A stretch of 64,000 nt of DNA, taken from assembly GCA_021029095.1 (NCBI GenBank), contig JAJOHG010000008.1, forward strand, positions 620,001-684,000. Direction: 5' to 3'. The notes under the pieces were generated by a model. The model was not told where the DNA came from, made no database searches, and worked only from the letters and a program-made list of their open reading frames with translations. Numbering within the stretch: position 1 is the stretch's first letter; the number at the start of each line of letters is the position of its first letter. This document shows positions 13,081-23,386 of the stretch, one piece after another. Origin of the DNA: Phellopilus nigrolimitatus. Its lineage: Eukaryota; Basidiomycota; Agaricomycetes; Hymenochaetales; Hymenochaetaceae. A program made the translations under genes and the position numbers.

Positions 13081-16000
13081 ATGAAGCTCAAGGAAATTCA
13101 CAGGACAGCGACGTTCGCATGGTCCCCCTCTCCTTCTGTACCTCTTCTAGCGTCGGGAACGGTGTCGGGCGCGCTCGACGAATCCTTCAGCAATGACAGC
13201 CAGCTGGAAATATGGGAGCCTGACTTTATGGACAAGGCCGAGTATGACCTGGGTGGCCTGGAACAAAAAGGCCCTAAGGCTTTTGTTTCGTCGACGTCGA
13301 GGTGTGGTAACTCGTCTATTTCGGATGCATTTAGCTAAGTAGGTGTGCTGCAAGGTTCAATCGCATTGCATGGGGATCCCCCAACAGCGGCCGTGGTCGA
13401 GGTGTCATAGCCGCTGGTATGGAGAATGGCGAGTTGTGCTTGTGGGATCCAGAGAAGATACTTGAGACCTCAGAGTATACTTTTCACTGAGTTCAACATT
13501 TATGTGATATTTATTGTCTGGTATTGCAGCTCTGCCGGGTCACTCATTCTGCGCAATACGACTCATCAGGGCTCTGTTCGCGGACTCGACTTCAACCCGA
13601 TTCAAACCAACCTTCTGTCGTCCGGTGCTACTAACGGAGAGGCATGTCTTCTTTTATCGCTTCCGGAGGCGCTTTAACACGCGTTGCAGATCTACATATG
13701 GGATCTGAAAGACCCGAGTAAGCCCTACTCCCCCGGGACGCGCTCCTCGAAGCTCGACGAGATCACGTCACTCGCGTGGAACAGGCAGGTCCAATATGTC
13801 CTCGCGTCGTCCAGCAGTTCGGGCCAGACGGTCGTCTGGGATTTGCGAAACAAACGCGAAGTCGTCGCGCTCGCATACGGCGCTGCGATGCAGGGTCTGA
13901 ATATCATGGGCGCCGGAGGCAGAAAGGGCATGAGCGACGTCGCATGGCATCCTGATAATGTATTTCTTTCTCTTGGATTTGAATTCTTAGATGTGTAAAT
14001 AACTGATCGCGGTGTAGGCGACGAGACTCGTTACGTCCTCAGAAGATGACGCCTCGCCAGTTGTCATGGTCTGGGATCTGCGTAATGCGCGCGCTCCTGA
14101 GAAGGTGTGTGTCCGATTTAAATGGTGATGGAGTTGGTGCTCATCTTTTCTTCAAAAGATCTTGACAGGACACGAAAAGGGTATTCTATCACTGTCGTGG
14201 TGCAAACAGGATGCCGATCTACTTTTATCTTGCGGGAAGGATAATCGTGCGCTCTGCTGGAACCCTCAGACCGCTGAAATCATTGGCGAAGTACGTCGTT
14301 TTGTCGTTGAAAAGCTTTCGATAAATTAACACGTGTTTCAGCTTCCATACGCTGATAATTGGGCCTTCCAAGTGCAATGGTGTCCCCGAAACCCTGATCT
14401 TCTCGCGACCGCCTACTTTGATGGCACGATTGGTGTTCACTCGTTGCAGACAACGAATGAACCCTCGGATGACCAGCTGACCGCCCCGACGCCCAAGGCA
14501 GACGGTTCCGATGTGTTCGACGTACCTGGCTTCTCCCGCACGACGCAAGCGACGCTCTCTTTGAAACAGCCGCCAAAGTGGTTGAGGCGGCCAGTTACAA
14601 GCTCGTTCGGTTACGGCGGCAACCTCGTATCAGTGTCAAACCTACCGTCTGCGCAAGGCAAGAATCAGAGTAGCGTCGTGCATTTGCATAAGGTCGCGAC
14701 AGAGCCTTCGATTGTCTCGCGTGCGAAGGAGCTAAAGAGCGCGGCGGACGAGCAAGCGCTGAGGGCGTTCGCTCAGGGCAAGTCGGCTGAGGCGGCTGCC
14801 CGCGCGGGACACGATGCAGCGAGCTGGAAGGCGCTCGCGAGTCTCTTCAAAGCAGACTCGCGCGAGGAGCTCGTCATGCTGCTTGGATTTTCGAAGTCGG
14901 AGATTGCGGCACGTGTTGTGGAAGCGGTTGAGAAGATCAGGGCGACTGCAACGCCTACGCAGGCGCCAGCGGACGTGCTCGATGAAGAGAGCAAGGTGCA
15001 CGAGCCTGTAGTGTCCTTCGCCGAACCTGAGGCGGAGCAGGAGCAAGAGTGCGAACGCACGCCGTCTGAGCAAGGAACAAGTGTCGCGTCAGATCACACT
15101 GATGTCACCAAAGCCGTTGACGGGGAGTCGACCACGACTGCTCCGTCCCTATTCGGGGACGACATCGGCGGCACGCCGCAATCGGACGCGGAGGCCGACT
15201 TCTTCAGCACGATGGGCACCACTCGCAACACGATCCCGGATCACGTTCAAATTCCTCATCAAAACTACGCACACGACTCATCCGTCGCGGCCACGGTCGG
15301 CTCGCGCCCATCTTCCTCGGCGTCGGAGGTTATGAAAAGCAATACGTTCCGGATCTACCCCTCGGAGGAGTCGGAAATTGACCGTCTGGTGACCAAGTCG
15401 CTCGTCCTCGGCGATTTTGAGTCGGCGGTGACGTTGTGCTTGTCGGCCGAAAGGTATGCTGATGCAATCCTCCTGGCCGTTAAGGGTGGCCCAGCGCTTC
15501 TACAGCGTACACAGCAAACGTACTTCGAGAAGCGGACGATTAACCTGCCGTACCTCCGCCTATTCCAGTCTATTGTTACCGAGGATCTGGATGACATTGT
15601 GCAGAACGCGGATCTGCAGGAGTGGCAGGAGATCTTTGTGGTTCTCTGCACGTTTGCGAAGCCCGATGAGTTTGCAAACCTTGCGGAGCAGCTCGGTCAG
15701 CGTTTGGAATTCAATGCGAGCATGACGAAGAGTGCAGAGGCGCTTGGTGCGGAGGAGCTCAGGAAGAACGCGACACTGACTTACCTCGCTGCGGGCCGGC
15801 TCGAGAAGGTTGTCAATATCTGGACGGAGGAGATGGCGGAGGAAGAGGGCCGGCTTCTTGATGGCGCGGACGAGAAGAGTAGCTTGCGCTATTCTGCTCA
15901 CGCACATGCTTTGCAGACATTTATGGAAAAAGTAACCATCTTCCGCAGTGCGAATAACTACGCCGACGCGGACCTGAAGGTGACGCCGGACCCCTCGGCC

Positions 16001-17852
16001 GTGCGGACGTACAAACTTTCGAACCTCTACGAGCGCTACTTTGAGTATGCCGACCTGTTGGCTACGCAAGGCCTCCTTGAGGAAGCCGTCAGCTTCTTGA
16101 AGCTCATTCCATCAGATTATCAAAGCACTACTGGTAACTCAGATTTCGACTTCACAATGGCACGCGAGCGCCTGCTGGCTGCTGCGGGTCATTCTCAGGC
16201 TTCGAAGGTGCCGGCTAAAGTAGTCCATGTTCCTTCTGCATCTACATCAACGATTCCGCCGCAGGCCAACGTCTACGGTTACTCTGCATATTCGGCTCAA
16301 CCGGTCCCTGCCGCAGTTGCCCCAGCCAGTGTTCGTGTACCTTCGACACAGTATCCGTCATACAACTCGAACGGCTCTGCCGCGCCGAGCCAAGCCGATA
16401 ACCCGTACATTCCGCCTTACGCAATTGCGCAGGCTGTCCAAGTTCCTGCGCCGCCTCCTCCTATTTCGAGCACATCCCAACCGAATGTCCCGCCTCCGCC
16501 ACCCAAGAAGCGTGATAACTCAGGGTGGAATGACGCGCCCGTTTTGGACCGCCGCACGCCTGTTTCTCACCCGCCTGGTAAGGTCGCCGCAATCACGTCG
16601 CCGTTCCCAAATGTCACTCCCCCACCTGGTTCTGTTCCTGGATCTCCTTTGCATGGGCCCCCGCAGGGTCTTCCGCCTCCGCCTCGTCCTGGGAGCGTCA
16701 ACAGAGGGCCTCCGCAAGCCTTGCAGGGCCCGCCGCCTGGTGCCGGCCAGCATCGAATGCCGCCCGTCCCTCAGCAGGGGCAGGGTGCATATGCACCTCC
16801 TCCAGGGAGAACCTACTCTCCTTTCCAGCAAGGCCAGGCGCCTCCAAGTCAGCAGGGTCCTCCGCCGTCTCGCGCACCGTCCCAGTTCGCTGCACCTGGG
16901 CGTGTGATCTCTCCTCAGCAATCCCAAGGAGCCCCGCGCCAGATGCCGCCCCCTCAAAGCCAATTTGGAGGGCCGGCGCTGCGCGGTCCCGGGATGCCTT
17001 CCACAAGTGGTCCTGGAGGTCCTGGAGTATCGAATCCATACGCGCGTGCGACGCCGCCGCCAGGCTGGCCGGGTCCTGCAGGGCCAGGTAGTATACATGG
17101 AGCGCAGCAAATAAACAATTCTGCTCCCTCGCAGATGCAGCCTCCTCCGGGACCGTACGGGCCGCCGCCGACTGCGGCGAGGCAGATACCTCCTCCCGGT
17201 GTGTCTGGCCTTCCTCCGCAGACACAGCATGTTCCGCCGCCTCGTGCGCCATCTGCTGGATCTCTGCCTCCTCAGGGTCCGCCTTCAGGATCTGCGGGTG
17301 CATCACGTCTTCCGCCTTCGAGGCAAGGTCCGCCTCCGCCAAAATATCGTGAGTGTAGCGTCTATCTCGTAGAGGAAATGTGAACTAATTTAACTCGAAC
17401 TCAAACAGCGCCGGGTGACCGATCCCATATCTCTAATGATTCAAAGCGGGCATACGAGATCCTCCTTCAGGCTCTTGGTCACTTGAAGCAGGTTTCCCCG
17501 GTACGTTGGATGCCTTCAATCACAACAACTTTATACTCACGCTGCCAATCGTAGCCCCAGCAAAAGCGGATGGTCGACGATACTGAACGCAGACTTAATT
17601 CTCTGTTCGATGCTCTCAACTGCGAAGCTCTATCTGAGTTCGTTGTCAAGCAACTCAACGCTCTCACAGAAGGTAGATTCTTTCTATCGAAAGAAAAGGT
17701 TGTGATATACTCATATCTTTTTTTCAGCAATGGCGACACACGACCAACAGCGCTCGTTGATGATTCACGGGGAGTTGCTGGCGCAGGGATCGCGAACAGA
17801 TGATATTGGGTTGTGGATGTCCGCCATTAAGCTGCTCATCATGCGGCTGTGA
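13081..17852 (+). CDS. SEC31: COPII outer-coat protein Sec31
   Basis: With Sec13 it forms the outer cage of COPII vesicles leaving the endoplasmic reticulum. The N-terminal WD40 propeller starts [17 protein letters not shown] and shows repeated blocks ([85 protein letters not shown]). A long exon (14333 to about 17346) carries the alpha-solenoid with [20 protein letters not shown], then a Pro/Gln/Gly-rich disordered arm containing many PPPP motifs, as expected for Sec23 binding and GAP stimulation. Two 3' exons encode the C-terminal helical domain ending [16 protein letters not shown]. Parts of the big exon (14799-15205 and 15400-15540) are the parents of inverted copies in the transposon at 20706-22693. 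Confidence 0.95.
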
Positions 17853-20382: not shown

Positions 20383-20705
20383 TTCCTAATAGCAATGATG
20401 CAACCGCGTCATCTCTGTATTATGTGTACTTCTTTGAGTCCTCGTCGCCTACGAGAAAGTTTGAGACTCCTTTCAATTATGAGATTCATTTATAGCATGT
20501 TTGATTGCTTCTTCTCTACTGTTTATAAATGCCACCTTGTTGCGACACGTATTTCCAAAAGGGATGCTCAAGTGCATTGAGTACATGTGCTCTGAGTCTG
20601 AAGGGATTGACGTTGTGGACCAATACTTTCCTAAGCGAGATGCATCCGATCCAATTCGGGGTTTGTGTTGAACGTCGTGCTGTCGTACTTGCCTTAGCCT
20701 TCAGG
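20383..20705 (+). pseudogene. Remnant of an open reading frame between two transposon insertions
   Basis: Removing the 785-bp element and one TA leaves a frame that runs open from about 19550 through the junction into sequence encoding SSLYYVYFFESSSPTRKF, then stops near 20503. Removing the next element and one target copy leaves the 20529-20705 frame continuing open into 22701-22764. No family is recognised. Either an unrecognised gene was hit twice, or two short open frames are coincidental. Confidence 0.3.
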
Positions 20706-21115
20706 CCCAGTGAAAAGTCACTCTTGTGAGATCGGACTGTATCGTATGAAATCGTATAGAGTCTTGTGGATTCGAATCAGATCGAGTGAACTCGGATGGT
20801 GGTCCGAAGGCTGTGTTGCGACTCAATTTAGACGTCTGATTTTCCGTTGCAACTTACTCAGGAGATCGACGGGAACGAGAAAAATGGCCAAATAAAAATA
20901 AATTTGCCCAACAAACTGCACTCGGCTTATGTAAATTGAATTCGTTCAACTCAATCAGTCGCTCGAACTCGCTCGAACTTGTGCTCTCTCGTTCAAGTCG
21001 CTTCTCACGTGCTCAGTTTAGAACTCCGCTGCCCTCCGCCAAAGAATTTGCGGTTTTCACTCGATTGCCTAGTGACAAAACTTCTCTCCACCACCATCGC
21101 CCTCCACAGCAAAGG

Positions 21116-21249
21116 CGATCATCCGCTTCTCAAAGTATGTTTGCTGTGTGCGCTGCAGAAATGCTGGGCCACCCAGGAGGATTGCATCAGCATACCTTTC
21201 GGCTGACAAGCACAACGTCACCGTCGACTCAAAATCGCCAAGAACGAGC
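21116..21249 (-). pseudogene. Captured SEC31 fragment A
   Basis: Read on the minus strand this encodes [20 protein letters not shown] then [17 protein letters not shown]. That matches Sec31 coding sequence at 15400-15540 nearly base for base, except for a 9-bp in-frame deletion (gccgttaag, residues AVK) and scattered substitutions. It lies inside the 2-kb TIR element, inverted relative to the parent about 5.7 kb away, and cannot make protein alone. Confidence 0.9.
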
Positions 21250-21289
21250 AAGAGTTGCACTTTAGCGAACACACTCCCGCAATGCTCAC

Positions 21290-21845
21290 AGCTGCAGACG
21301 GCGTGCCGGCGGGTGCGGCGGCGGTGCGGCGGTGGGTGCGGCGCTGTCGTGGGACGCGCTCCCCGAGGCGCTGCTCGCGGACTGCGTGCAACTCGTCAAG
21401 GCGAGCTTGATCGAGGGTGCGTGGCGCCAGCCGGCCGTTCTCTCTTCTTTTTCTTTTCTTTCTGTTCTGCGAGAGCTGAGGGTGTGCTGGCAGGGAACAA
21501 GAAGGATAATCTAATAGTAATATACACGCCCGCAAGCAATTTGAAGGTGGTCGCGGCTGCGGCGCTGGGGCGGGGGCTTCGCCGGCTAAACTATGCGATG
21601 ATAATTGCTTTTTTCTTATGGTAGAAAACGGGAGACATGGCCGTCGTTTCTAAGCGCGACAAAAATGTGTGTCCTTCCCCTCCCCCTTCTTCACTTTTCC
21701 TGGTGTCGAAACTCAAAAGTAACAGGTGAAGTGCGTGCCCCTCCCCTCATAAAAAAACTCCTGCTTACTTCGTCCGACTTCGATAGTACACGTTGCGAAG
21801 CGCGAGAATGCGATCGTGAGCCGGCTGAACAAGGCGAAGCTGAAG
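21290..21845 (+). pseudogene. Captured fragment of a Jlp2/CCDC25-like (NFACT-R domain) gene, introns retained
   Basis: Plus-strand exons spell LPEALLADCVQLVKASLIEG, then after a 70-nt GT...AG intron NKKDNLIVIYTPASNLK, after another intron KTGDMAV, and near 21790 VHVAKRENAIVSRLNKAK. These are the consecutive conserved blocks of the NFACT-R protein Jlp2/CCDC25. N- and C-terminal parts are missing, and the third and fourth blocks are separated by a degraded segment. No parent gene is in this window. Retained introns show capture of genomic DNA, not a processed transcript. Confidence 0.82.
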
Positions 21846-22240
21846 AAGTCCGCTTCCGCATCCAATTACGCCGTACCGCCAAAGTCATCCCACACAGGGA
21901 CGGAGCGGTCATGATCGACTCACCATCAACGGTTTTCATGACATCAGTGTGGTCTGACGTGACGCTCGTTCCCTGCTCGGACGGTGTACGTTCGCACTCT
22001 TGTTCCTGTTCAGCTCAGGGTTCTGCGAAAGAGACTACAGACTCGTGCACCTTACTCTCCTCAGCATCGAGCATGTCCGCCAGCACTTGCGTAGACGTTG
22101 CAGTCGCCCTGATCTTCTCAACTGCTTCCATGTGATCTCCGACTTCGAAAATCCAAGCAGCATGACGAGCTCTTCGCGTGAGTTTGCTTTGAAGAGACTC
22201 GCGAGCGCCTTCCGGCTTGCTGCGTTGTGTCCCGCGCGGG
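21840..22240 (-). pseudogene. Captured SEC31 fragment B
   Basis: The minus strand corresponds to Sec31 coding sequence 14799-15205, about 400 bp, with substitutions and small indels. Recognisable parent blocks include the [14 protein letters not shown] region (copy reads TVDGESIMTAPSL), and the reverse frame [16 protein letters not shown] is shared by both loci. Its boundary with the Jlp2 fragment overlaps at gctgaagaagtcc, a short microhomology. Indels destroy the Sec31 frame. Confidence 0.88.
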
Positions 22241-22700
22241 TCGGTGTTGTGGATCCTTTCCGGATGGAAGGCGGACAGGTCTGGTGTGCGGGGCGAGGGC
22301 GATTGGTGTGCAGGGCAAGCGTGACTGGTTGCTCGTCCTCGATGTCATTTTTGTCGCTGCGTGTTTTTATGTTTTAGCGTAGCGTACAACCAATACAGTG
22401 CTCGATTTGATTTTATAAAGAAAAGAGTAGTGTGATGAACTGTCAGATTTAATTCGATAACATCCGATGAGACACGATACATGAATAGAAATGACACGAT
22501 TTTGCGCGATCCTGCTATAGATTCTGTCGAATGAAAACGGGCCTGCTCGAATGATCCGATTTCACTCGTTTTCACTCATTTTGACGATAAATAAATCGTT
22601 TTATTCTTAAAATATATTGTGATATCGGACCAGTTCGATTAGTCCGATGTCATGCGATCTAATTCGATTTCACACGAGTGACTTTTCACTGGGCTTCAGG

Positions 22701-23386
22701 TCGGACGCTGCTAAAGCACTTCAACACGTTCCGCGCGTACACTGCATCTACTCCAGTAGTGTGTAGCGGAAGTTAGTTCCGAGAGCAGGCGCCTTCTGAG
22801 GAACAAATATTACGAATGTCGATGTGGACCGCGTCTTCCCGGTCGCAAGCGGATGTGAGCAATGCCGAGGAAAGCTGAGGATAGAGTTGTGCGACCAGCG
22901 ACGAAAAGGATAATAAAGCAGGAAAGGACAAGAAGTGAATGACGCGCTCTTTTCCACCTTCAGATCGTAATCCAGCCCGTGTTGTCGATGAGAATTGTTG
23001 AAATATGGGTATGACATAAGCGGCTCGCGTGTCGGTGGCAACGCATTTCCATTTCCATTTTGTCTCATATTATGTGATCGCGGCTGCGGCTGACTATTTA
23101 CAATTTTTCTGTCTATATGCGCACCTCAGTCTTGTACCGTCTAGACTGAGGTGCGTATCTATTCTTTGCCATTAGTTTACTTTCATATTGACTACCTGTA
23201 AATAGCCGGTTTTCTATTGCAGGTAGCTAGTCTGAATATAGAGTCTTGTACCGTCTAGACTGAGCCGGTTTTCTATTGCAGGATTTCTTTAAGAATTCGT
23301 GTTTTGATTCTGCTTTCACTAGTAAAGCAGTCAAGTGCTCGGAGGATTCAGTGCACAAAGTACACCGAGCTCGCCGGTCCGCCGGT
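22701..23386. other. Spacer with a hairpin and duplicated short blocks
   Basis: There is no supported gene; a 106-codon minus-strand frame (22748-23068) has no recognisable family. Near 23120-23157 lies an inverted repeat with arms cgcacctcagtct / agactgaggtgcg. The block agtcttgtaccgtctagact plus gag occurs at 23128-23150 and again at 23242-23264. The block agccggttttctattgcagg occurs at 23204-23223 and 23263-23282. The latter looks like a 3' splice site, so a leader intron of the next gene is possible. Confidence 0.55.

Follow-up and report, generated by a model that had tools for sequence, protein, structure and literature searches.

Within a 64,000-nucleotide stretch of the genome of Phellopilus nigrolimitatus, a wood-decay basidiomycete of the Hymenochaetales (hereafter the window, on contig C614 of the 56.4-Mb assembly G000, which has 635 contigs), positions 20706-22693 are occupied by a 1,988-bp non-autonomous element that has terminal inverted repeats (TIRs) and carries pieces of two host genes, SEC31 and CCDC25/Jlp2. 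Taken as a whole, this element is very probably best explained as a cut-and-paste, non-autonomous transposon of the Pack type, mobilised by a tnp2 transposase and acquiring host sequence through gap repair. It shows the features by which Pack-TYPE or Pack-TIR transposons are recognised, namely TIRs with a target-site duplication (TSD), the lack of an internal transposase, and an interior of host-gene pieces that have parental copies and keep their introns. All comparisons described below were made in this one genome, and its genome-wide sequence searches give lower bounds.

The element is delimited, as a preliminary description made from the sequence alone had proposed, by perfect 18-bp inverted tips and by a 7-bp direct duplication on its two sides; the tips belong to arms of 50 bp with 84% complementarity. 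That description also stated that no transposase is encoded within. This proved correct, in that the interior consists mostly of host gene pieces and a Pfam scan of five open reading frames (ORFs) of the element matched no family, and hence no transposase domain. The features are:

20699 to 20705, no strand: left copy of the TSD, CTTCAGG, read from the sequence
20706 to 20723, plus strand: left 18-bp TIR, CCCAGTGAAAAGTCACTC, the tip of the 50-bp arm, from inverted-repeat comparison
20706 to 21119, plus strand: left end common to family members with other cargo (element positions 1-414)
21118 to 21249, minus strand: SEC31 piece A (element 413-544), aligning at 86% identity to window 15400-15540
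21250 to 21256, no strand: junction segment of 7 bp between SEC31 and CCDC25, absent from both donors and the same in all five same-cargo copies
21257 to 21839, plus strand: CCDC25/Jlp2 piece with introns (element 552-1134), matching positions 1216-1261 and 1477-2035 of donor L035
21839 to 22240, minus strand: SEC31 piece B (element 1134-1535), aligning at 83% identity to window 14799-15208
22323 to 22693, plus strand: right end common to family members with other cargo (element 1618-1988)
22676 to 22693, minus strand: right 18-bp TIR, from inverted-repeat comparison
22694 to 22700, no strand: right copy of the TSD, CTTCAGG, read from the sequence
14330 to 17383, plus strand: long open frame of the host SEC31 gene, 1017 amino acids, the closest SEC31 donor sequence found

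Pfam scans of the SEC31 frame and of two other window frames matched no family, and an Rfam scan of the window at gathering scores gave no match. Immediately to the right of the element, positions 23114-23161 and 23128-23282 contain 19-bp hairpin arms and direct repeats of 20 to 36 bp.

The cargo had been correctly named in the preliminary description as SEC31 and Jlp2/CCDC25, and alignments and structure matches agree on this. The SEC31 gene of the window, whose frame ends 3.3 kb from the element, matches solved SEC31 structures (E 6.9e-26), and the donor frame of the second piece, on contig C346 of the same assembly, matches CCDC25 structures (E 1.6e-17) and NFACT-R_1 (E 1.2e-14); an NCBIfam search with this frame found no match. 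Two SEC31 pieces do flank the CCDC25 piece as first described, but they are collinear with each other on the minus strand rather than mutually inverted, and CCDC25 alone is oppositely oriented. Between the two, 191 bp of SEC31 are missing and the CCDC25 piece stands in their place. Its main part (element 633-1134) is 78% identical to the donor and two short pieces are 83 and 87% identical. Since the alignment runs through the CCDC25 introns, both cargos were captured as genomic DNA, which upholds the earlier claim that host exons had been acquired at the DNA level. The source gene of element positions 1536-1617, which are shared with the family element C614b, was not traced. We dropped the notion that the CCDC25 piece had lost its start codon, as the ATG in question is internal to a donor exon.

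The ends of the element define a family of transposons. With up to two mismatches allowed, the genome contains 55 occurrences of the 18-mer end and 2 of a reversed control, and a 29-base end pattern with up to three mismatches has 61 matches against none in its control; hence, these end matches exceed chance. The same ends gave no match in IMG/VR. Twenty-two distinct loci are bounded by both ends, five with the cargo of the window element and the others with other interiors, so that the further copies for which the preliminary description had advised a search do exist; 17 more occurrences are single-ended, several of these with a common flank. A perfect 7-bp TSD flanks 20 of the 22 loci, every one of these TSDs having A at position 5 and 18 of them T at position 3, which yields the symmetric pattern nnTnAnn. 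Other family members enclose quite different interiors between sequence shared with the window element (its left 414 and right 371 bases), and this shared sequence varies in length and is 74-92% identical. The cargo that could be named, covering part of the family interiors, comprises pieces of coatomer beta' (E 1.3e-35; PF23953), APC1 (E 1.9e-31), an Na/Ca exchanger (PF01699) and an Argonaute (PF02171 at 1.8e-5, under the Pfam cut-off), along with a weak importin-beta match (0.0028) that is likewise under the cut-off.

Some family loci have peculiarities of their own. One locus is present twice in the assembly (C623:599-8090, here C623a, and C434:76416-78465) with flanks of 94-100% identity, its element measuring 7,492 bp in the former and 2,050 bp in the latter. 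Within the element at C603:31877-39053 there is a retrotransposon frame of the copia type (1,515 amino acids), named by eye. The captured Argonaute piece has at least 42 match rows (best 40 of 48 candidates), at 69-86% identity apart from the self-match, some of them being haplotype pairs or fragments of a single gene; this genome seems likely to have an expanded family of Argonaute-related sequences. Near C614:1065398-1065959, in the left flank of a family locus, lies a sequence of about 200 bp that occurs as inverted pairs some 200 bp apart on C78, C625, C182, C57, C323 and C301, and is a fold-back repeat family.

The window element itself has counterparts with the same cargo on C368, C468, C163 and C445, all bounded by the tips and each of the five with a distinct 7-mer as TSD (CTTCAGG, GCTCAAC, ACTCAAT, CACTAGG and GCTTAGC). 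A search with the whole element, in which the best 40 of 57 candidates were scored, gave full-length matches of 97-100% identity in at least four places including the window, and matched the C445 copy in pieces at 90-94%. No similarity at E 1e-8 was detected among the flanks of the five loci (up to 1 kb per side, except for one C163 flank of 115 bp). The copies in the window and on C368, C468 and C163 differ by 0.26-0.50% substitutions, and that on C445 differs from them by 4.2-4.4%. The C445 copy appears to be an older form, because it keeps about 200 bp of CCDC25, lying between short GCAGACGGC-type repeats, that are lost in the other four. Thus, the form with this cargo has come to occupy no fewer than five places, and four of its copies are nearly identical, in accordance with the earlier proposal that the element could move.

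Further evidence for transposition comes from empty sites. For 18 loci up to 160 and 140 flanking bases were joined with one copy of the TSD and searched in the same assembly; with the best 40 of 296 candidates scored, which makes the count a lower bound, at least 8 of the 18 constructs match a site elsewhere that runs without a break across the junction and has the 7-bp target only once. Identity is 99-100% for C445, C468 (on two contigs), C163, C268 and C43, 95% for C246, 93% for C334 and 89% for C555, and at the fetched sites the junction itself agrees at 50 of 50 bases in the first five and at 49 of 50 in the last three. The sites of 99-100% identity look like the other haplotype of the dikaryon, and those of 89-95% could be paralogous repeats. 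The assembly seems to contain both haplotypes for many regions, and therefore allows occupied alleles to be set against empty ones. Three of the five same-cargo loci (C445, C468 and C163) have such empty counterparts.

A candidate for the mobilising enzyme is provided by two long members of the family, C246 (14.8 kb) and C90 (15.6 kb), which bear the family ends together with an open tnp2 frame (PF02992) and so supply, as a putative partner, the transposase-bearing relative that the preliminary description had suggested looking for. These were the only two places in the genome where this tnp2 was found. Its fold is that of the Transposase_21 or RAG1-like DDE enzymes, as in the CMCT clade (CACTA-Mirage-Chapaev-Transib); in the comparison, matches ranked under RAG1 and Transib were left aside as short or unrelated. 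There is a strong likelihood that this tnp2-type transposase acts in trans on the shared ends. Mutator elements, which include the Pack-MULEs (Mutator-like elements), have TSDs of 8-11 bp. No MULE transposase was matched in the genome, and the 7-bp TSD of the family is also off this pattern. Among 23 element intervals we found none of the seven genome matches to hAT transposases and none of the 40 positions with KDZ transposases (73 match rows before neighbours were merged), and we accordingly rejected hAT, KDZ and MULE enzymes as mobilisers.

It is nevertheless conceivable, if unlikely, that some other transposase with 7-bp TSDs, of the hAT7 or Kyakuja/KDZ kind, mobilises the family and that the tnp2 of C246 and C90 is a passenger. 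Duplications of 7 bp are described for hAT7 and Kyakuja as opposed to 2-5 bp for CMCT elements (PMC12730594), the TSD pattern is symmetric, and KDZ transposases are abundant in this genome; the gene of such an enzyme may sit on a single-ended element. However, Kyakuja is described in the same account as being without TIRs, which are present here, the hAT and KDZ positions all fall outside the family elements, and both places of tnp2 fall within them. Moreover, the family tip, CCCAGT, resembles the CCC tips described for TRC-type Transposase_21 elements, such as CCCAGTCAAC of Aedes (PMC1636069). We therefore retain tnp2 as the candidate mobiliser. The family is not filed as ordinary CACTA, because the TSDs described for CACTA/TRC elements are of 2-5 bp; likewise, its CCC..GGG ends depart from the mostly CA..TG ends of CMCT elements.

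A 29-kb element on C555 (757906-787048) was considered as an autonomous form and rejected, being a 2-kb element with a nested insertion of 27 kb (element positions approximately 272-27331). This insertion has 404-bp inverted ends of 95.8% identity (CACCTGTGCCCC...) and an 8-bp duplication, AGTTTATC, and contains a Plavaka transposase (PF18759), pieces of STT3 and TRIP12, and DUF6532; it is perhaps a second gene-collecting family. Plavaka was also set aside as a mobiliser, as it was seen only in this nested insertion among the scanned ORFs, a set that did not extend to a genome-wide Plavaka search, and its TSDs are described as being of 2-3 bp (PMC12730594).

The junctions of the captured pieces bear on how the cargo was acquired. 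In C614b a SEC31 piece of 663 bp is continuous where the window element lacks the 191 bp and has CCDC25, which indicates that SEC31 was captured first and CCDC25 later placed into it. Similarly, C246 and C43 hold an unbroken Argonaute piece that in C90 is split by a piece of APC1, a contiguous genomic stretch that is 94% identical to its donor, present on two contigs, over 2,117 bases. At the right junction the APC1 donor and the Argonaute piece have 5 bp, ACTCG, in common, and at the left 1 bp, G; ACTCG flanks the insert on both sides and no Argonaute base has been lost. Hence, this case matches copying into a break followed by switching back. On the strength of these alignments the captures appear to be serial and nested, with CCDC25 inside SEC31 and APC1 inside Argonaute. 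Capture probably proceeded by the repair of a break or gap with a template switch at microhomology: a break or an excision gap would arise inside the element and be mended with sequence copied from a host gene, the copying then switching back at microhomology, such that cargo would pile up serially in the interior as the ends remain intact. One young case, that of APC1, gives good support to gap repair; the case in the window is compatible with it but does not prove it. In the alternative route proposed for Arabidopsis Pack-CACTA elements, as related in reviews, two close elements lose opposite ends and their outer ends come to enclose host DNA. We regard this as rather improbable for the present family, since such a route encloses DNA between two elements, whereas here CCDC25 lies inside SEC31 and APC1 inside Argonaute, the donors are on other contigs, microhomology is present, and the older piece has been kept intact in the APC1 case.

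Considering mobiliser and capture together, we lean towards viewing the family as a distinct tnp2 lineage (RAG1-fold, CMCT-type) that makes a 7-bp staggered cut at nnTnAnn and is engaged in ongoing gene-sampling, in which breaks are mended with copies of host genes, pieces become nested, and short cargo-bearing forms spread with the enzyme of a few 15-kb members. Such a lineage would seem to have been active so recently that insertions are heterozygous in one individual. Several observations weigh against tnp2 mobilisation with gap-repair capture. The left CCDC25 junction holds 7 untraced base pairs with no microhomology and the right shares 1 bp; the SEC31 and CCDC25 captures are taken to be old because of donor identities of 78-86%, and the original breakpoints may be blurred. 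The exact SEC31 donor copy is not fixed, because C434, C146 and C2 bear partial SEC31-like copies that share 94-95% identity with the window gene across approximately 1.6-2.4 kb (those on C434 and C146 are identical across 3,410 bp, with 87-bp direct repeats of 91% identity flanking the SEC31 part). Two of the 22 loci (C623b and C625) have no TSD. The best 40 of 296 candidates in the same assembly include no empty counterpart of the locus in the window itself, so that the check for empty sites named at the outset succeeded for other loci, three with the same cargo among them, but not for this one. The tnp2 model is of moderate quality (mean pLDDT 61), we infer the activity of tnp2 from its co-occurrence with the ends in two elements, and the 7-bp TSD departs from the 2-5 bp described for CMCT elements.

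It is improbable that the captured pieces are put to use, be it in chimeric genes or by giving rise to antisense or small RNAs against their donors. As the SEC31 pieces and CCDC25 are oppositely oriented, transcription of either strand would yield RNA antisense to one of the donors, and a proportion of animal Pack-TIRs is described as transcribed (PMC8277862). However, the indels of the SEC31 pieces are not multiples of three, among them gaps of 1 bp and two of 5 bp, and because of these frame-breaking changes the SEC31/CCDC25 cargo looks like a decayed passenger that probably has no intact reading frame. Finally, simple segmental duplication or repeat decay mimicking a transposon, which the presence of a SEC31 gene in the same window might suggest and of which the duplication had been named beforehand as what would refute the transposon, has next to no probability: it is excluded for the five same-cargo copies, because their flanks show no mutual similarity at E 1e-8 and their TSDs are distinct, and the empty sites rule it out for the family as a whole.

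Pack-CACTA elements of plants were reportedly described by Catoni in 2019, an account known to us through reviews. How TIR transposons capture genes is disputed between excision-linked, gap-filling and neighbour-hybrid models, and as several captures, their parental genes, shared ends, a likely partner and empty sites occur here in one assembly, the junctions can be read against these models. In the published descriptions, plant Pack-CACTA/Pack-TYPE elements (PMC8903248, Gisby and Catoni 2022) resemble the present family in being non-autonomous TIR elements with host gene pieces and a CACTA-type partner; the latter differs in its fungal host, its nested captures, its CCCAGTG rather than CACTA ends, and its 7-bp TSD, that of CACTA being given as 5 nt. 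The animal Pack-TIRs, as described in PMC8277862, share with it gap filling or template switching with microhomology (a median of 2 bp in their case) and a multicopy, transposing state, but are mostly hAT and Tc/Mariner elements, unlike this tnp2-type family with its several successive cargos. Among fungi, hAT and Tc1/Mariner elements of Dothideomycetes are known to transduplicate genes, in one instance from a transcript (PMC3538342, PMC6710886). The histone-H3-carrying hAT described there is likewise a case of fungal TIR transduplication; it has an autonomous form, whereas that of the present family is likely only, and in P. fijiensis it has an 8-bp TSD and intronless cargo, whereas the present family keeps introns and has sampled many genes. 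The TET/JBP DNA transposons described in PMC12730594 are also basidiomycete TIR elements with an extra gene, some being CMCT members, which have short TSDs; they keep a single enzyme gene that is thought to serve the transposon, in contrast to the decaying fragments of unrelated housekeeping genes found here. The Helitrons of Pleurotus ostreatus (PMC4289320) too are basidiomycete elements with captured host gene fragments, but are rolling-circle elements, without the TIRs and TSDs of this family. TRC-type CACTA elements with Transposase_21, as described for SmTRC1 (PMC1636069), have the same CCC tips, with duplications of 2 bp instead of 7. The open-licence literature that was searched yielded, in the portions consulted, no basidiomycete case of a Pack-type TIR family and no tnp2 element whose TSDs are of 7 bp; what is likely new here is thus a tnp2/CMCT-type partner of a Pack-TIR with TSDs of this length, where 2-5 bp have been described. 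A tie between a RAG1-like enzyme and 7-bp target duplications would, if true, widen the description of the CMCT clade. The known fungal cases are extended here by a single tnp2-type family that has captured fragments of housekeeping genes serially, in nested fashion and with their introns. By its behaviour the present family is a Pack-TIR, and by its partner it stands near the CACTA/TRC elements.
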